A stretch of 57,457 bases of DNA, from the NCBI GenBank assembly GCA_027063645.1, contig JAMORK010000044.1:1-57457 (forward strand), written 5' to 3'. Position 1 is the first letter of the stretch. Each line of letters starts with the position of its first letter. Positions 1,306 to 20,159 of the stretch are shown piece by piece. The notes beneath the pieces are model-generated. The model was not told the origin of the DNA, searched no databases, and was given only the letters and a program-made list of their open reading frames with translations. The position numbers and the translations under genes are program-made. This DNA is from Sulfurimonas sp. Its GTDB lineage: Bacteria; Campylobacterota; Campylobacteria; Campylobacterales; Sulfurimonadaceae.

Positions 1306-3259
1306 TACTTTTAGGTTTTGCAAAATAATACCCCTGAAAGTATTTACAACCAATCTCTTTGAGTTTTTCATAATGCTCTTTCTCCTCTACCCCCTCAGCA
1401 ATTACATCTATGTTTAAAAGAGAACCTAAGTAGATAATAGACTTGATTATCTGAATATCTTTCTCATTCGTAAACATATTTTGAATAAAAGACTGGTCTA
1501 TTTTTATCTGGTCAAGTGGAAATATTTTAAGATACTGAAGTGAAGAAAACCCTGTTCCAAAATCATCTAAAGAGAGCTTGATATCTAATTTCTTAAGTTC
1601 TCTCATCTTTTTTGCTACACCATCTTGGTCTTTTATAAAGAGTGTTTCTAGGAGTTCTAACTTGAGTTTTGTATAGTCAACATTATAATGAGTAAGTGCA
1701 TTTTTCACTTTTTGTACAAAATCATCTTTATTGAACTGTTTTGCACTTACATTGATAGCAAGTACCCACTCTTTTGTTTTTTCATCATCTTCCCATAATT
1801 TGAGTTGTTTACAAGCCGCATCTAAAACCCAGTCTCCTATATCTACAATTAAGTCTGTACGTTCGGCAATTGGTATAAATTTATATGGCGATAAAAGTCC
1901 AAACTTTGGATGGTTCCAACGAATTAAAGATTCTGCTCCAATAATGTTTTTATCTTGGTCATATTGTAGTTGGTAAAAGAGTTCAAGTTGATCTTTTTGT
2001 AAAGCTATAAGTAAACCCTCAGATACATTTAAAATATTTTTTTCATTATTTTCATTATTTTTATCAAAATAAACAATTTGTTGATGATTCTCTCTTCCAA
2101 TCTCTAATGCAATATTCGTGTGTCTTAAAACTTTGAGAGGATCCTTTTCACCTATAGAGATGTCAATACCAATATGAGCCTCAGTTTTAACAAGAGTCTC
2201 CTCAATTTGAAAGTTCTTTGATAAAAGACCAAGAAGTGCATCAGCAATAGTTTGTGCTTTTTGTAAAACAATATCTTTATTATGCTCTTTATTTTGATAA
2301 TAGAGTATAAAATCGCCCATGCCCATACGAGCACTTAAGTTGCTATCGTTAAAATTTTCTTTGAGACTCTGTGCAAATTTTTTAATAACCTCGTCTCCAT
2401 ATTTATAGCCATAGGCATGATTTATAGATTTTAAGTTTGTAAGTTTTATGTAAAACATTATATTGTAATGGGAGTCGTTTTCTTTTAAAATATCTCTCAG
2501 AGCAGAGATAAAACCATTTTTATTTAGAAGCCCAGTAAGGGGATCGTATTGTGTTGAAATAGCTAAGGCTTCCTCTGCTTTCTTTTTTTGTTGTAAAAAA
2601 TCAACTAGTTTGGCAAAGAGTAAATTTATCTCTTCATAAAGTTTTCCAAACTCATCATCATATTGTTTTTTTATTTGGTACTGAGGGATAGTACCGTTAA
2701 GATCTACCTTCTCTAAAAAATCTACAAGGTAGAGAATTGGTTGGGTGAATCTATGAGCATAATACTTTACTAAAAGAAAAGAGATACTCAAAAAAAGTAG
2801 AAGAGTCAATACCAAATAGATAAAATCATCTTTTAAAATATCTAAAAAAGATTCTACTTTTAGTTCAAAATAGAGTTCACCATAGGAGTCTCCATGATAG
2901 AGCATCTTTGTTGTCGTAGTGAAAATTTTATTTTTAGAAACTTTTGTTGGGGCATTGTAGAGAAATATTTTTTTTCTTTGTTGATTGTATAAAATAACTT
3001 TTTGAATTTTTGTAAGTGCTTGGAGTTTTGTTGTTATATCTGTAGCGGTGTTGATGTCATCAAGTAAAATAAGACGTACAAAATCTTGTGATAAAACCTC
3101 TGTAATACTTTTAGCTAAGTATATGCGATCGTTTTCTTGTTTTGAAACATACCAACTAGCAAAAAGGATATATCCAATTACAACAACAAAGGAGATAAGG
3201 AAAAAGATTGCTTTTATAAATTTTTTCTCGATTGAGCCCTTATATACAGATGTTTGCAT
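1286..3259 (-). CDS. Membrane GGDEF/EAL protein, probable cyclic di-GMP phosphodiesterase
   Basis: The 657-residue protein has a transmembrane helix (about 12-35), a periplasmic sensor segment (36-128), a second helix (130-152) and a HAMP-like linker. A GGDEF domain (about 235-400) follows, then an EAL domain (about 408-655). The cyclase signature is degenerate: MGMGDF stands where GGDEF should be, so cyclase activity is unlikely. The EAL site looks complete, with ESLIRW, NVSAKQF, LELLE, LDDFGTGFSS, IKIDQSF and IAEGVE. It therefore probably hydrolyses cyclic di-GMP, with the dead GGDEF possibly sensing GTP. It starts two bases after the rhodanese gene stops, so the two are probably co-transcribed. 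Confidence 0.9.
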   Translation of the reverse strand: MQTSVYKGSIEKKFIKAIFFLISFVVVIGYILFASWYVSKQENDRIYLAKSITEVLSQDFVRLILLDDINTATDITTKLQALTKIQKVILYNQQRKKIFLYNAPTKVSKNKIFTTTTKMLYHGDSYGELYFELKVESFLDILKDDFIYLVLTLLLFLSISFLLVKYYAHRFTQPILYLVDFLEKVDLNGTIPQYQIKKQYDDEFGKLYEEINLLFAKLVDFLQQKKKAEEALAISTQYDPLTGLLNKNGFISALRDILKENDSHYNIMFYIKLTNLKSINHAYGYKYGDEVIKKFAQSLKENFNDSNLSARMGMGDFILYYQNKEHNKDIVLQKAQTIADALLGLLSKNFQIEETLVKTEAHIGIDISIGEKDPLKVLRHTNIALEIGRENHQQIVYFDKNNENNEKNILNVSEGLLIALQKDQLELFYQLQYDQDKNIIGAESLIRWNHPKFGLLSPYKFIPIAERTDLIVDIGDWVLDAACKQLKLWEDDEKTKEWVLAINVSAKQFNKDDFVQKVKNALTHYNVDYTKLKLELLETLFIKDQDGVAKKMRELKKLDIKLSLDDFGTGFSSLQYLKIFPLDQIKIDQSFIQNMFTNEKDIQIIKSIIYLGSLLNIDVIAEGVEEKEHYEKLKEIGCKYFQGYYFAKPKSISSLIQ

Positions 3260-4637: not shown

Positions 4638-5693
4638 TTGAATAATAATTCTATAGAAGAAGTAGCTTATTTAGCAAGTGAAAAGATTCAAATATCTATA
4701 CGTATCTTCTTGATTGTCAGTATCATCATTACCCTTAGTTTTCTTGACTCAAATTACTTAAGTATAGAGGGTGCTTTTCATGTAACTATTTTAGAGATTT
4801 TCATATCAGTTATGTGTATAAATGCTCTTTATTATCTCTTTTTAAAACGCTATCCATATCAATTTCAAAGATTAAGAATTGCTATTATTGCAGTTTTAGA
4901 TGTTGTGTCTTCTACTTATATTATGTACCTTGTTGGTGAGGTTTCTTTGTATTATACTGTTTTGTTTTTATGGTACATGATAGGGTATGGTCTTCGTTAT
5001 GGAAAAGATATAGCATATATTACTTATGCAACGATTTTAGTGAGCTGGCTTCTCCTCATCAATACATCAGAATTTTGGATCAATCATACCTCTTTTGCAT
5101 ACTCTTGGTTCATCACTTATGCCGTTTTACCTTTGTATTATTTACATATAGTAAATAAGTTAAAATTGAACCTTTTAGAACTTCATAAAGATGTTGAAAC
5201 ATCACACTACCAAGCGAGTCATGATCATTTAACAAATCTTCCAAATAGAATCTCTTTTGAGAAAAAACTTGATGATTTACAAAAAGAGAAGAAAGAATTT
5301 GCACTTTTATTTATAGATTTAGATAAATTTAAAAGTATCAATGATGAGCATGGTCACCATGTAGGAGATAAGGTTTTACAGCAGTTTGCACAGAGAATGG
5401 ATAAAATTTTTCCTTATGCTGCAAGGCTTGGAGGGGATGAATTTATAGCTATTATAGATTATAAAGATGAGACAAGTTTAGAGAAAAATTTAGATCAAAT
5501 CCTTAAAAATATAAGTGTAAGATGTAAAGAAAATGGGCAACTCCTTTCAGCAAGTATAGGGGTTTCTTTATTTCCAAAAGATACATCAAATATGCATATA
5601 CTTAAGAAAAAAGCAGATGAAGCGATGTATGAAGCGAAAAAAAGAGGTAAAAATACCTTTGTTTTATATTCTAAGATGGAAAAAGAGCATTAA
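4638..5693 (+). CDS. Membrane-bound diguanylate cyclase
   Basis: The 351-residue protein has about six hydrophobic helices in the first 175 residues, then a GGDEF domain (about 195-345). The A-site is intact in ARLGGDEFIAII, and the GTP/metal-binding LFIDLDKFKSIND is also intact, so it should make cyclic di-GMP from GTP. No RxxD inhibitory site is found just before the GGDEF motif, so product inhibition at that site is not expected. The start is a TTG preceded by AGAAAGGGG at good spacing. It is the only protein in the window with an unaltered cyclase signature. The gene ends 19 bases before cmoA. Confidence 0.9.
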   Translation: MNNNSIEEVAYLASEKIQISIRIFLIVSIIITLSFLDSNYLSIEGAFHVTILEIFISVMCINALYYLFLKRYPYQFQRLRIAIIAVLDVVSSTYIMYLVGEVSLYYTVLFLWYMIGYGLRYGKDIAYITYATILVSWLLLINTSEFWINHTSFAYSWFITYAVLPLYYLHIVNKLKLNLLELHKDVETSHYQASHDHLTNLPNRISFEKKLDDLQKEKKEFALLFIDLDKFKSINDEHGHHVGDKVLQQFAQRMDKIFPYAARLGGDEFIAIIDYKDETSLEKNLDQILKNISVRCKENGQLLSASIGVSLFPKDTSNMHILKKKADEAMYEAKKRGKNTFVLYSKMEKEH

Positions 5694-14546: not shown

Positions 14547-14573
14547 ACGATAGGTTTTAGACAAACCTATCGT
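14547..14573. terminator. Convergent terminator hairpin between clpB and trmO
   Basis: ACGATAGGTTT (14547-14557) pairs perfectly with AAACCTATCGT (14563-14573) across a five-base loop. On the plus strand it is followed by a T-rich run from 14578. It begins 22 bases after the clpB stop, and the trmO stop codon lies inside it, so it may serve both genes. Confidence 0.75.
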
Positions 14574-15045
14574 CACTCTTTTTCATTTTTACTTCATCTA
14601 CACTAGATTGCATCCAACCAGATTTTACTTCCCCTTCAACTTTATCAAAATTTTCTATATAGGGTTTTATATCTAAAAGTGGTGTACCATCTAAGATATC
14701 TATCCCTTTTATGGTTACAATGTTTTTCTCAACACTTACTAATTCTACAACCGATAAACCAATGCTGTTTGGGTGCATAGGTGTTCTTGTAGAAAAGACT
14801 CCTCTTGGTGTATCTGTTTTATCATTAAAGGGGATCACCTTTAATTGAGGCTCTTTGACCTTATGAAAATAATAGATAAGATACACATGGCTAAACCCAT
14901 CAAGATCAGATAATCCTTCTACAAACTCATCTTTAAAGGTGATACTTGCATAAGTATTACTGGCTCCCTTTGGCTGTATGGGCATATCGACAAGTGAGCA
15001 AAATGGGGAGTTGATCGTTGCGATTTGTTGTAGGTTTATATTCAT
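14557..15045 (-). CDS. trmO: tRNA (N6-threonylcarbamoyladenosine37-N6)-methyltransferase TrmO family
   Basis: The ATG at 15045 is preceded by AAGGAGAT, giving 162 residues. The protein belongs to the TsaA/YaeB/VirR family: an opening PFCSLVDMPIQPKGA, DLDGFSHVYLIYYFH, the TRTPMHPNSIGLSVVEL block and GTPLLDIKPYI. E. coli TrmO methylates t6A at position 37 of tRNA using SAM. This version is shorter than E. coli TrmO, as many bacterial members are. The start overlaps the MFS gene stop by four bases, so it is translated as the second gene of that operon. Confidence 0.88.
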   Translation of the reverse strand: MNINLQQIATINSPFCSLVDMPIQPKGASNTYASITFKDEFVEGLSDLDGFSHVYLIYYFHKVKEPQLKVIPFNDKTDTPRGVFSTRTPMHPNSIGLSVVELVSVEKNIVTIKGIDILDGTPLLDIKPYIENFDKVEGEVKSGWMQSSVDEVKMKKSDDRFV

Positions 15046-16223
15046 TTGATCTCCTTGAATCTCATTGCAAATGGGATGGCACAAAATGCTAGAAGTGCCG
15101 CTATCTCATAGGTGTTTGCTAAGCCTATCTTATCTCCAAAAATTCCCATCACTAAGACCACAATAGAACTAATCGAAAAATTGATAGTCATATAAACACT
15201 GTTTACAAAAGTAGGCATCTCGGTATGAACATCGTGGATAACAGCGAGTAAAATGGGACCACTCGCAAACATAAAGATACCAAGAAGTGCTAAAACTCCA
15301 AAAACTGTGTAGATATTGTGGGAAAAAAGAAAAAGTGTCATCGTTAATGCCGAACCTATCGACATAGATACAAGAACCTTTTTTCTTCCATACTTATCGG
15401 AGAGTGATCCAGATATAAAGGTACCTATAACACCAAAAAATTGTAAAACAGAGATTGCTATACTTGCTGACCATAACTCAAACCCTTGTTGTGTAAGGTA
15501 AACGGCCAGGTAGAGTGTTGTTGCCATCTTCATTGCTGATTGAAAAAAAAGATATGCTCCAATATTTTTAAAAAGGGGATAAAATCTTTTAATCTCTTTG
15601 AGAGCATCTCCCTTTTCAGCTTTTTTAGTAAAATTTTGATCAATTCTGAAGTCTTTAAGACGGTAGTAAAGTATAAGTGAGGCCAGTAACCCAAAAGGCA
15701 TAAGATGCCAGATCCCCTCTAGTCCCCAAAGGGAGATTCCCGCTGTGACAAAAAGTGGTCCAATGGTACGTGCTAACTCTCCACCCACCATATAAAAACT
15801 CATCCCTCTGCCTATCTTATCTCCAGAAGAAGCCTTGATAATCCCAGGTGAAGGGATATGAAAGAGGGTAGAACTGATACCTGAGATGATAAGGAGCATC
15901 ACCAAAATAGTATAGGAGGGTGCTAAACCTAAAAAGCTCATACTAAAAGCTGTGAGTGCAGGGGAGACAATAACAAAGTACTTTGCATCTGTTCTTTGTG
16001 CGAGAAGCCCAAAAAATGGATTGAGCAGAGATGGCAATTTTCTAGCGATATCTAAAAATGCTACAAGATACAGAGGAATAGCAAGTTTTTCTATAAGTAG
16101 AGGTAGTATAGGTGCTAAAAAAGAGGAGTAAGTATCATGTGCAAGATGTGCCATCGAGATGGTGGTAACCTGACTTCTATTTGATTGTTGGAGGAGTTTT
16201 TTATCATTCATCTGTTTTTTCAT
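15042..16223 (-). CDS. MFS transporter, probable drug or small-molecule exporter
   Basis: The 393-residue protein has about twelve hydrophobic helices and the MFS loop signature between helices 8 and 9 (SGSLSDKYGRKKVLV). Its N-terminal half resembles fosmidomycin-resistance (Fsr)-type exporters, with AHDTYSSFLAPILPLLIEKL. An ATG at 16211 is an alternative start. The gene is preceded by a sigma-70 promoter containing two palindromic operators, so a repressor probably controls it; no regulator gene is adjacent. It overlaps trmO by four bases. Confidence 0.87.
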   Translation of the reverse strand: MKKQMNDKKLLQQSNRSQVTTISMAHLAHDTYSSFLAPILPLLIEKLAIPLYLVAFLDIARKLPSLLNPFFGLLAQRTDAKYFVIVSPALTAFSMSFLGLAPSYTILVMLLIISGISSTLFHIPSPGIIKASSGDKIGRGMSFYMVGGELARTIGPLFVTAGISLWGLEGIWHLMPFGLLASLILYYRLKDFRIDQNFTKKAEKGDALKEIKRFYPLFKNIGAYLFFQSAMKMATTLYLAVYLTQQGFELWSASIAISVLQFFGVIGTFISGSLSDKYGRKKVLVSMSIGSALTMTLFLFSHNIYTVFGVLALLGIFMFASGPILLAVIHDVHTEMPTFVNSVYMTINFSISSIVVLVMGIFGDKIGLANTYEIAALLAFCAIPFAMRFKEIK

Positions 16224-16358: not shown

Positions 16359-18359
16359 CTAAATTCTAGGTTTATGTTGTATATGTTTTTCTATCGGTTC
16401 AGGTTTTCCAAGATAAAAACCTTGAGCATAATCAACACCAAGCTCTTTAACAACATCTAAAATCTCTTTAGAACTAACAAACTCAGCTATAGTTGCTATA
16501 TGAAGTTTATGTGCTAGCTCTACTATGGTTTCAACCATGATTTTTGAGTTTTGATCTCTATCTATGTTTGAGATAAGGGTTGCATCAATCTTAATGTAGT
16601 CAATTGGAAGATTTAAGATATGGGAGAAGTTAGAGTAGCCTGAACCAAAGTCATCAAGAGCTATTTTGAGACCATATGAGCGTACTTTAACACAAAAATC
16701 ATAAACAATTTGATAGTTAACAAAGTCTTCTGTTTCTAAAAGCTCTATGGTAAGAAGCTCATTATGTTCATAAGTATCAATGATATCAAAAAATGTTTTC
16801 ATCGTTCTATCGTTTTCAATATCGGATAAAGAGATATTGATAGAACAAGGTATCTGGTATTTTGTTGCTACACTAAGAGTGTTTTTTAAGACGCTGTTTG
16901 TAATTTTATAATAGATACGATTTATTTTTGCAACACGTATAAACTGATATGGTGCAATTACCTTACCATCTTCACCAATAATCCGAATAAGTGATTCATA
17001 CTTGATAGCTTTGCTTTTATCTTGAATAGGAACAATAGGTTGAAAAAAGGAAACTAACTTCTCATTTTGAAGTGCTGTGACAAGTTTTGTATGACACTCT
17101 ATATCACTTTGATGGATTCTCTCAAGTTCTTTATCATCATTAAATTCTGAAAGTTGAGTATTGCGTTTTTTTGCATCTTTTAGAGCCATATCTGCATAAG
17201 CTAACATTTTTCTTCTTCCCGTATAAGAGATACCAGCACTCATTACAAAACTAAACTTTTTATCTTCATACTCAAACTCTTTTCTTTGGTAGTTATGAAG
17301 TATATCTGCAACAATATTTTTAAAATCCTCTTGTGTGAGAGGATCATCTTTATGCACAGCTAAAGCAAACTCATCACCAGCAATATGATATAAGATGATA
17401 GATTCTCCTGTAATCTCATGGCGTAAAAAATCAGCAGTAAGCTTAATAGCCACATTCCCTGTCTCTTCTCCATAAACATCATTAAAAGATTGAAACTTAT
17501 CTATGTTAAGGATAGCGATCATAGAAAATGAGTAAAGAGAAGCATCTTCAAGGAGTCTATTCCTATTTGGAAGACCTGTGAGAAAATTTGTGTAAATTTT
17601 TTGTCGAATCTCTTTAGCTTTTTTTGCTACCTCTTTTTCTAGATCTTCGTTATATCTTAAGAGTTGTTTTTGCAGGTGTTTTTGTTCCTGTTCAGCTTTT
17701 TCTGCACGGCTAAGTTGAGCTTGTAATTTACTATGGAGTCTAAAAAATTTGTAAGAGGTAAATCCAATCATCAAGATAGCTATAAAAAATGAAAGTAGAA
17801 TAGTGGTAGAGTTTTGTTCATTATTAATTTTAAGCTTTAAAATTTTGGCATGGAGTGCTTCGTGTGATATATCTATAAGTTTTTGTGTATCTTGTGAGAA
17901 ATTGACTGTTATTGCATTAAAACCTATAAGAGCATCTTCGATATCGACCTTATCTTGAGACTTCAGAGCTTCTATAAGAGAGTCTTGTACAGCCTGATAT
18001 GCCACTGTTCGTTTTTGAATCACTTGCAGTGTTTCTTCAAAACCTTCTAGGTCAATTTTTTTATTTTTGAAAAATAGTTCTAAATTATGCACAGAATCTT
18101 TTATCTCTCCAAAAGCAGTATATTTGTTGATATGTGAGATATCTTTTTCTAAGAGTACCAATTGTAAAAGATCTGTTTGATTCTTTTTAATGTCATAGTT
18201 GAGTTTATTTGCATAGTAGTTGAGTTTAATTTGATCTTTTTCTAAGTACTTAATGACATTGCTACTACTTTGAATGTTTGTATAACTAAGAAAAAGAGCA
18301 AAGAGTAGTAGTAAGAAACTAGATATAAGAGTAAGATATATATTGTTCTTATAGTTCAT
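16359..18359 (-). CDS. Membrane GGDEF/EAL protein
   Basis: The 666-residue protein has a transmembrane helix (about 7-28), a helical periplasmic sensor (30-185), a second helix (188-206) and a coiled-coil linker. GGDEF (about 255-400) and EAL (420-660) domains follow. The cyclase site reads HIAGDEFALAV; AGDEF variants can be active. The EAL site has YESLIRI, NISLSDI, IELLETEDF, LDDFGSGYSN, YIKIDATL and an unusual IAEFVSSKE in place of AEGVE. Whether it makes or breaks cyclic di-GMP is uncertain. It is the last gene of a tight operon with the outer-membrane protein and the small periplasmic protein. Confidence 0.9.
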   Translation of the reverse strand: MNYKNNIYLTLISSFLLLLFALFLSYTNIQSSSNVIKYLEKDQIKLNYYANKLNYDIKKNQTDLLQLVLLEKDISHINKYTAFGEIKDSVHNLELFFKNKKIDLEGFEETLQVIQKRTVAYQAVQDSLIEALKSQDKVDIEDALIGFNAITVNFSQDTQKLIDISHEALHAKILKLKINNEQNSTTILLSFFIAILMIGFTSYKFFRLHSKLQAQLSRAEKAEQEQKHLQKQLLRYNEDLEKEVAKKAKEIRQKIYTNFLTGLPNRNRLLEDASLYSFSMIAILNIDKFQSFNDVYGEETGNVAIKLTADFLRHEITGESIILYHIAGDEFALAVHKDDPLTQEDFKNIVADILHNYQRKEFEYEDKKFSFVMSAGISYTGRRKMLAYADMALKDAKKRNTQLSEFNDDKELERIHQSDIECHTKLVTALQNEKLVSFFQPIVPIQDKSKAIKYESLIRIIGEDGKVIAPYQFIRVAKINRIYYKITNSVLKNTLSVATKYQIPCSINISLSDIENDRTMKTFFDIIDTYEHNELLTIELLETEDFVNYQIVYDFCVKVRSYGLKIALDDFGSGYSNFSHILNLPIDYIKIDATLISNIDRDQNSKIMVETIVELAHKLHIATIAEFVSSKEILDVVKELGVDYAQGFYLGKPEPIEKHIQHKPRI

Positions 18360-18364
18360 AATAT

Positions 18365-19882
18365 TTAAAATCTTGCTTCAAGATTGAAGTAACCTATATT
18401 TTGTTGTGCATCTTTTTTTGCAGGTTCACCAAAGTGCCAACCACTTCCTGTGTAGTCTTCTTGCATATAAAGATACCCGATTTTAGCATTGAGATATTTA
18501 TGAAATTGCCATGATATATAAGCCTCATAAGCTGATCCACGAAGTGCGAGTTTATTATACATATCTTCGGCTCCCTGTGTTCCTGAGTACCAGTACTTAC
18601 TACCGTAGTTATATTCCGCACCTAGATTAATATCTTTTGTAACATCATACTTCAGACCTAAGTAAATTGAATAGCTGTCTTTTTTAAGCATTGGTCCACT
18701 AGCATAATCAGCTTCTGTAAAACCAGTATATCCACCATTAGTTGTACCTGCTGTAGGGTTTGTAATCTTGTAATCATCTTGGTTATTATTCCCATGAGGG
18801 GTAGTGTAGGCAGTATGAGCAAAAACTGTAAGGTCCGAATTTTGAAGTTTTTCTATATCTATCCCTAATCCATAAGTGATAATAGTTCCAAGATTTGATG
18901 AATTGGATGAATCAATGTCTGGGCCAAGATAGGGATGAGCTTTTAGATTATGCATCATATTGATACCAAATGAGAGAAGGGAATCACCTAGAAAATCGAT
19001 TTTTGAATCAGCATAAATACCTATAATATCTGCATTGTCTATATTTTCTCTGTTACATTGATAGGGGTAAAAATTTGGACGTAAAGTATATGCTTTTGCA
19101 AGAACAAGTCGAGCATAAGTATCTTCAGAAAATTTTTGTGTCCCTATCACTCCATAGGTGTTCATATCAAAAACAAGTGCAGGAAATAATGAACTTCTTT
19201 GTTTATTTTGTGCATACTGCATTGGCGTTCCACCAGAAGTAGGTAAGATACCAAAAGAGAAGGTAAAAGGTGTAGATGAGGTTTTGTTAAGAGTGTAGTC
19301 TATATAAGCACGGTCTATATCAAAAGCACTGCCTGCTGTTCCTGCCTTAATATCACGAGACAAGATACATATTCTTTGATTTGACTGTGTTGAATTCATA
19401 TAGAGCATACGACCATGAAATTTTATATCTTCAAGTTCAAAGCTCATATTGAGTCGAAAACGCATAGATGCTGCTACATCAAAATCTTTTGAAAACTCAT
19501 CACGGCGTTGTAGACCATTTAATGCAGGATTCGTATTGTTGTAGATTTTAGTATTTTCCCCCTCAATTTGACCATTACTGTAGTTAAACTTATCAAAACG
19601 CAGCATAAGTTCAGGGGTAAAGTTGATTTTATCTAAGATAGATTTAGTTTCTACCTTTTCTAAGATGGTAGTATCTTCATCTATACTAAGTGTATTTTCC
19701 TCTACCTGTTCTTGTATTTTCCCAACCGTACAACTACTTCTAGTTTGTTGCTTCGCATTGTGTTGTACTTGTGCTTTAAGCATTTTAATCTCATTTTCAA
19801 GCTCAAGTATTTTTTGGAGTACATCTATATCTTGAGCGGCACTTAAGAGTAAAGGGAGTGTTAAGAGGGCTAATTTTTTCAT
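18365..19882 (-). CDS. Outer-membrane beta-barrel protein, DUF3373 type
   Basis: The 505-residue protein has a short signal peptide (MKKLALLTLPLLLSAAQ), then a coiled-coil segment (about 20-50, LQKILELENEIKMLKAQVQ) of the kind that anchors porins to the cell wall. A long run of alternating amphipathic strands ends in FNLEARF, with a terminal Phe as in barrel proteins. It resembles the DUF3373 family common in sulfur-oxidising Campylobacterota. The cargo is unknown. It starts four bases after the small periplasmic gene and ends five bases before the GGDEF/EAL gene. Confidence 0.8.
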   Translation of the reverse strand: MKKLALLTLPLLLSAAQDIDVLQKILELENEIKMLKAQVQHNAKQQTRSSCTVGKIQEQVEENTLSIDEDTTILEKVETKSILDKINFTPELMLRFDKFNYSNGQIEGENTKIYNNTNPALNGLQRRDEFSKDFDVAASMRFRLNMSFELEDIKFHGRMLYMNSTQSNQRICILSRDIKAGTAGSAFDIDRAYIDYTLNKTSSTPFTFSFGILPTSGGTPMQYAQNKQRSSLFPALVFDMNTYGVIGTQKFSEDTYARLVLAKAYTLRPNFYPYQCNRENIDNADIIGIYADSKIDFLGDSLLSFGINMMHNLKAHPYLGPDIDSSNSSNLGTIITYGLGIDIEKLQNSDLTVFAHTAYTTPHGNNNQDDYKITNPTAGTTNGGYTGFTEADYASGPMLKKDSYSIYLGLKYDVTKDINLGAEYNYGSKYWYSGTQGAEDMYNKLALRGSAYEAYISWQFHKYLNAKIGYLYMQEDYTGSGWHFGEPAKKDAQQNIGYFNLEARF

Positions 19883-19886
19883 AGTA

Positions 19887-20159
19887 TTATAATCCTGGTA
19901 CTATTGGTTGGTCTGAATCTGCTGCATGCAGGATAAGATATTGCATCAGTTGCATTCTCTCTTGTGTGGGTAGTGAGTCAATCTTGTAGCGTTTCATATG
20001 TCTTGGAGAAGTAAAGATACGCTTCCATTGAATCGATGCTTTTGTCCCAGCATAGAGGTTGAGTCTTTGTGCAAGTTTGGACACATCTTCATTGTGTGTA
20101 GTAGCACAGAGGGATGATGGGGTAATTATAATAATAAGTATATATAATAAAACTCTCAT
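19887..20159 (-). CDS. Small periplasmic protein, unknown function
   Basis: The ATG at 20159 is preceded by GGAGGG at ideal spacing; an ATG at 20174 is in frame but contains that ribosome site. The 90-residue product has a signal peptide ending near SSLCA. The mature part is short and helical, rich in Arg and Lys (IQWKRIFTSPRHMKRYKID) and ends HAADSDQPIVPGL. The size and the ending recall small cytochromes, but there is no CXXCH haem site. It is first in an operon with the DUF3373-type protein and a GGDEF/EAL enzyme, which suggests a shared envelope role. Confidence 0.65.
   Translation of the reverse strand: MRVLLYILIIIITPSSLCATTHNEDVSKLAQRLNLYAGTKASIQWKRIFTSPRHMKRYKIDSLPTQERMQLMQYLILHAADSDQPIVPGL

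Follow-up and report, generated by a model that had tools for sequence, protein, structure and literature searches.

The three-gene operon beside the rpmH-rnpA-yidC-mnmE cluster in a 57,457-nucleotide stretch of DNA from Sulfurimonas sp. (contig JAMORK010000044.1; hereafter the window) probably encodes a porin-coupled trans-envelope sensory module, in which a heme-less cytochrome would act as the periplasmic adaptor and which would here drive the hydrolysis of cyclic di-GMP (c-di-GMP). A first-pass annotation, made from the sequence of the window alone, had described its products as a 90-residue secreted protein, a 505-residue barrel with a coiled coil, and a 666-residue membrane protein with GGDEF and EAL domains, encoded with gaps of 4 and 5 bases; the open reading frames (ORFs), the Pfam matches and a structural model show this description to be correct. 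Its proposal that outer-membrane, periplasmic and inner-membrane c-di-GMP parts form one unit also holds beyond this genome, the unit being conserved in many genera. The earlier reading is nevertheless only partly supported, as the canonical genes of the barrel family have unrelated neighbours and the family includes a known porin, Omp50. It also missed both the kinship of the small protein with cytochromes c, of which it is a heme-less relative, and the interchangeable outputs that extend beyond the c-di-GMP enzyme. In many bacteria an outer-membrane pore is accompanied by a very small periplasmic descendant of a cytochrome that is without the heme site, and usually by an inner-membrane signalling protein as well, in what looks like a dedicated route for reporting on the outside to the motility and c-di-GMP machinery.

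Conservation of the gene set

The distribution of the three parts was followed in a sample of 200 genomes of the family, one per species, many of them metagenome bins. The small protein is present in 55 of these genomes and the N-terminal part of the sensor in 40, while at least one gene of the barrel family, DUF3373, occurs in 165; by comparison of coordinates, the small gene and the sensor N-terminus lie within approximately 2.5 kb of each other in 31 of the 200. A set of 77 Campylobacterota loci with the small gene was drawn from this family and from further families of its order. In 73 of them the barrel gene directly follows the small gene on its 3' side, and of the 71 loci that are not truncated at a contig end, 67 have a neighbouring gene with a homologous periplasmic sensor domain. 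This gene arrangement is far beyond chance. In two genomes carrying two copies of each gene, the three parts segregate together according to type: the distances within a genome are 0.67 for the small protein, 0.73-0.75 for the barrel and 0.86 for the sensor, and those between copies of the same type across genomes are, in this order, 0.12-0.15, 0.25-0.32 and 0.11-0.29, which is not what plain species relatedness would give. Mantel correlations among the three parts range from 0.68 to 0.74 and partly reflect species relatedness. As judged from these comparisons of sequences, the genetics and phylogeny of the module can be regarded as solid.

The same loci bear on a rival explanation, in which the small protein serves the porin as an accessory (an assembly factor, a plug or a gate) and co-expression is all that ties the GGDEF-EAL enzyme to it. 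The Omp50 loci of the Campylobacter type, discussed below, do retain porin and small protein without the sensor, and heme-bearing relatives of the small protein are also encoded next to respiratory enzymes, accompanied by a barrel of the same kind. However, the sensor domain and the small gene occur together in an almost one-to-one relation, three loci (L135, L137 and L140) have kept the small gene and the GGDEF-EAL gene in the absence of the barrel, and the canonical DUF3373 barrels retrieved at rpsB-tsf have no small partner, so that a mere accessory role appears unlikely. It is also worth mentioning that in locus L116 (positions 4986-5512) a natural internal deletion joins the signal peptide of the barrel to the EAL tail, leaving the small gene alone intact, and that in L170-L173 the GGDEF-EAL gene, whether at this chromosomal site or at another, is not accompanied by the small gene and barrel, its sensor part being shortened in L173.

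The small protein as a heme-less relative of cytochrome c

The small protein has a signal peptide at approximately residues 1-19, as recognized by inspection, and belongs to no significant Pfam family (the best match, at 0.13, is a chance one) and to no NCBIfam family. A scan of species genomes revealed relatives in Shewanella, Ferrimonas, Desulfuromonadales, Desulfobulbaceae, Deferribacteres and other taxa, mostly encoded directly before a DUF3373 barrel. Those outside Campylobacterota and Deferribacteres carry the CxxCH motif, and the two heme-bearing relatives tested match Cytochrome_CBB3 and Cytochrom_C. The heme-less and heme-bearing sets are homologous (hhalign E 2.7e-21). All 77 Campylobacterota copies lack CxxCH, and hence the covalent heme site, the segment of about 12 residues that contains it being absent; they retain the preceding helix, the QWxRxF motif and, mostly, the HAADSDQP motif, the histidine of which is missing as well from the subgroup with an upstream chemoreceptor (L165-L169). 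Loss of heme would be the simpler direction of change, because the form with heme is a member of the large cytochrome c superfamily. The AlphaFold2 (AF2) model of the protein is helical, with a predicted local distance difference test (pLDDT) score of 80.5, and a Foldseek search with it returned nothing significant. The operon thus presents a case of a cofactor-less cytochrome relative within a signalling operon; in the literature searched, no paper linking a heme-less cytochrome to a chemoreceptor or porin was found.

Clear kinship to the monoheme cytochromes c of electron-transfer operons, and the HAADSDQP histidine kept in most members, could also mean that the small protein is a remnant of respiratory electron transfer which holds a non-covalent heme or another redox cofactor, the enzyme sensing its redox state. 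This is improbable, given that CxxCH is absent from every Campylobacterota copy, that the L165-L169 subgroup has lost even the histidine, and that no reductase gene lies near the Campylobacterota loci.

CxxCH is also absent, it appears independently, from the small proteins of the Deferribacteres loci L052, L068, L093, L103 and L105, where the small gene faces a cytochrome gene and a flavoprotein gene (of the sulfide dehydrogenase family in L052). The genome from which the window derives contains a second DUF3373 paralogue (L193, positions 121-1506 and 1572-1898, minus strand) preceded by a different secreted protein of 108 residues with a cytochrome-like start and no CxxCH. Homology of this protein to the small protein of the window is not demonstrable (hhalign 0.7%); it may be kin of the heme-bearing set (hhalign 90%, E 2e-6).

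The barrel and its relation to Omp50

The barrel scores 130.6 bits against PF11853, the cut-off of which is 26.1, and matches Omp50 of Campylobacter jejuni (PDB 10aw) as a single sequence at E 1.4e-18; its profile matches the PDB entries 10aw and 10dn, the 50-kDa outer membrane protein Omp50, at 1.2e-76. In the AF2 model (pLDDT 81) an N-terminal coiled coil is followed by approximately 16 strands in a porin-type fold, which resembles the trimeric porins OmpM1 (Z 23.7) and DcaP (Z 20.8). The barrel is accordingly a predicted porin by both homology and model. The first-pass annotation had stated that DUF3373 proteins have no assigned cargo, but the family is not uncharacterised, as it includes C. 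jejuni Omp50, a described porin of solved structure (10aw).

The canonical DUF3373 genes, which are the top Pfam scorers, occur singly and adjoin rpsB-tsf or other unrelated genes. The annotation had named two observations that would speak against its proposal, adjacency in this genome only and unrelated neighbours of most DUF3373 genes. The outcome is mixed, because adjacency is widespread and yet confined to a distinct part of the family, the canonical genes having unrelated neighbours. We also weighed whether the gene at rpsB-tsf belongs to the system and discarded this, as it lacks a small partner. In the loci L174-L193 the canonical DUF3373 gene is usually single beside rpsB-tsf, and in several Sulfurimonas genomes it is convergent with another GGDEF-EAL gene.

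A midpoint-rooted tree of 123 barrels has two sides. One of them, with a support of 0.59 (weak near the root), comprises the barrels encoded beside EAL, HD and chemoreceptor (methyl-accepting chemotaxis protein, MCP) partners, as well as several from heme-bearing deltaproteobacterial loci; the other, with a support of 1.0, unites the canonical DUF3373 proteins with barrels encoded beside genes of the octaheme tetrathionate reductase family, PhsA-like genes and sulfide dehydrogenase genes. Omp50 groups with the EAL-linked barrels on the signalling side (support 1.0).

C. jejuni Omp50 has been described both as a porin and as a phosphotyrosine kinase, and deletion of the cj1169c-cj1170c operon lowers oxygen tolerance and chicken colonisation (PMC3694039). 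The Omp50 (Cj1170c)-Cj1169c pair shares with the operon of the window a barrel of the same family. Loci of the Omp50 type carry a secreted protein of 75-82 residues beside the porin, and this protein is homologous by profile to the small protein of the window (hhalign E 1e-6; the best of the column-shuffled controls reached 0.012). The differences are that the porin gene comes first, that the small protein is shorter and diverged, and that the C. jejuni-like genome has no signalling gene beside the pair; in several other Omp50-type loci a chemoreceptor or GGDEF-EAL gene lies beside the small-protein gene. The genome concerned, G485, is presumably C. jejuni, from its 99% identity to the sequence of the Omp50 structure, and its porin and small-protein pair corresponds to the published cj1169c-cj1170c operon. 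The proposed module offers a role that can be tested for Omp50 and Cj1169c, two Campylobacter proteins that have been studied and yet are puzzling.

The sensor protein and its interchangeable outputs

In the 666-residue protein Pfam recognizes a GGDEF domain (5e-12) and an EAL domain (2e-53), and two transmembrane segments, identified by inspection, enclose approximately 160 periplasmic residues. The EAL signature residues E455, N508, E542, D569, D570, K590, E626 and Q646 are invariant in 30 sequences, whereas the first GGDEF position varies across homologues (G, S, N or A); on these grounds the enzyme is predicted to be an EAL phosphodiesterase that degrades c-di-GMP. Its membrane-bound GGDEF-EAL architecture with a periplasmic domain would also suit a LapD-like c-di-GMP receptor signalling inside-out to the small protein or barrel, and its catalytic half scores 1e-44 with the NCBIfam LapD model, yet far under the cut-off of that model. 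LapD proteins have degenerate EAL sites, however, and here the EAL signature is intact; moreover, the exchange of the output for HD-GYP and chemoreceptor domains fits sensing from the outside in, so that a receptor of this kind seems even a little less probable than a redox remnant.

Beside the small gene and barrel, four kinds of partner are encountered: GGDEF-EAL proteins, HD-GYP-type HD_5 proteins, chemoreceptors and histidine kinases. HD-GYP partners would likewise degrade c-di-GMP. Homology links the N-terminal sensors of HD and MCP partners to those of EAL partners, with hhalign E values of 4e-7 to 1.5e-17 against the EAL set, and R117 and D139 are invariant in 29 sensor sequences. When the sensor profile was run against 24 genomes it gave 13 strong matches (E<=1e-36), one per genome and 12 of them beside the small gene, the next-best match being at 3e-6 with many weaker candidates on offer. 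Loci in the alignments had also served to build some of the profiles, which does not affect the argument that further strong matches are absent. Judging from these matches, the sensor domain is dedicated to this locus. In deltaproteobacterial lineages, heme-bearing homologues of the small protein adjoin a barrel and a chemoreceptor.

Proposed mechanism and the evidence against it

In the proposed mechanism, the porin of the Omp50/DUF3373 type would admit a small solute to the periplasm or dock its small partner there. The small periplasmic protein would bind the solute or the porin and, as an adaptor, pass the information on to the helical sensor domain that the inner-membrane protein exposes to the periplasm. 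In the window the output would be an EAL phosphodiesterase with a degenerate GGDEF domain, and in its relatives an HD-GYP, chemoreceptor or histidine-kinase domain; with such an EAL output, the signal would most likely alter c-di-GMP breakdown and hence motility or attachment. We infer which proteins touch one another, which way the signal runs, and what the ligand is, most plausibly a sulfur or other respiratory compound. A sulfur compound is the leading guess because the enzymes encoded beside related pairs are of families that act on tetrathionate, thiosulfate-type substrates or sulfide: the respiratory neighbours of the related cytochrome-barrel pairs are largely sulfur enzymes, namely the octaheme tetrathionate reductase family, a PhsA-like enzyme and flavocytochrome c sulfide dehydrogenase. 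Taken by itself, this guess is a tentative one that would sooner fail than hold.

Several observations weigh against the sensory module as proposed. The linkage to sulfur enzymes sits in the other major barrel group. In four genomes (G052, G085, G099 and G173) the GGDEF-EAL gene occupies this position while the small gene and barrel are missing, and genomes of the C. jejuni type keep the porin and small protein with the sensor not adjacent, so that the parts can exist apart. The sensors beside Omp50-type loci are not detectably homologous to that of the window, and homology of those beside the deltaproteobacterial chemoreceptors is unsupported (hhalign probability <=5%). Finally, the model of the small protein resembles cytochromes weakly, a diheme cytochrome c coming first in a follow-up structural alignment at Z 5.2.

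More broadly, it is conceivable, at not quite even confidence, that a cytochrome c, having lost its heme, has been repurposed as a dedicated periplasmic adaptor between a specific porin and its private sensor, and plugged into at least four kinds of output (EAL and HD-GYP c-di-GMP phosphodiesterases, chemoreceptors and histidine kinases) across Campylobacterota, the Omp50-Cj1169c pair of C. jejuni being a reduced form. Porins are generally regarded as passive holes. That one porin lineage is inherited as a unit with a periplasmic partner and a sensor of its own suggests a direct link from the passage of a compound across the outer membrane to chemotaxis and c-di-GMP.

Comparison with other systems

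The operon of the Shewanella SO_4142-SO_4144 type, composed of genes for a monoheme cytochrome c, a DUF3373 barrel and a member of the octaheme tetrathionate reductase family, likewise has a homologous small protein directly before the barrel, in many Shewanella species. It differs in that the small protein has CxxCH, the third gene encodes an octaheme cytochrome (TIGR04315) and not a signalling protein, and the barrel falls on the opposite side of the tree. S. oneidensis SO_4142-SO_4144 itself is assigned to this type by its annotation in papers, not by its sequence.

YfiBNR of Pseudomonas aeruginosa is alike in outline, with outer-membrane, small periplasmic and inner-membrane c-di-GMP parts (PMC2837407, PMC3375315, PMC4655355). 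In the window, by comparison, the outer-membrane part is a putative porin, the small protein is related to cytochromes, and the predicted activity is c-di-GMP hydrolysis. Membership in the YfiBNR group was rejected: the small protein, with no significant Pfam match and cytochromes c as relatives, is not of the YfiR type, and the outer-membrane part is a porin-type barrel instead of a YfiB-type lipoprotein. In heme-containing Cache sensor domains, a sensor has gained a cytochrome heme motif (PMC12889525); both cases point to evolutionary exchange between cytochrome c modules and the sensory systems of bacteria, but here it is a cytochrome relative in a sensory operon that is without the heme site.

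Layout of the operon

The operon, as read from the ORF list of the window, lies on the minus strand, and its orientation is divergent from that of the adjoining cluster. The positions of its features are given in Table 1. The start of the 90-residue ORF is backed by a GGAGG sequence immediately before it, as found by inspection; this sequence falls within a longer ORF of 95 residues.

Table 1. Positions of the operon's genes, domains and motifs in the window
Feature	Position	Strand	Basis
Inner-membrane sensor protein with GGDEF and EAL, 666 residues	16359..18359	-	ORF, Pfam
EAL domain, signature residues invariant in 30 homologues	16401..17087	-	Pfam, alignment
GGDEF domain, first signature residue degenerate (AGDEF)	17160..17585	-	Pfam, alignment
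Periplasmic helical sensor region, residues ~28-185, between two transmembrane segments	17805..18278	-	Shared with HD-GYP and MCP partners
DUF3373/Omp50-family outer-membrane barrel, 505 residues	18365..19882	-	PF11853 E=1e-37; PDB 10aw homology
N-terminal periplasmic coiled-coil helices, residues 18-80, partly of low pLDDT	19643..19831	-	AF2 model
Small secreted protein, 90 residues, heme-less relative of monoheme cytochrome c	19887..20159	-	ORF; CxxCH homologues in other phyla
Conserved HAADSDQP motif, common to heme-bearing and heme-less members	19905..19928	-	Alignment
Conserved KASIQWKRIF motif; W45 invariant in 42 sequences	20013..20042	-	Alignment
Site (between residues 32 and 33) of the ~12-residue CxxCH segment of heme-bearing homologues, absent here	20063..20064	-	Alignment

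On the same strand, genes for a major facilitator superfamily transporter and a TrmO-family methyltransferase then follow (14557-16223); their listed ORFs overlap by 43 bases, and they lie outside the conserved unit.

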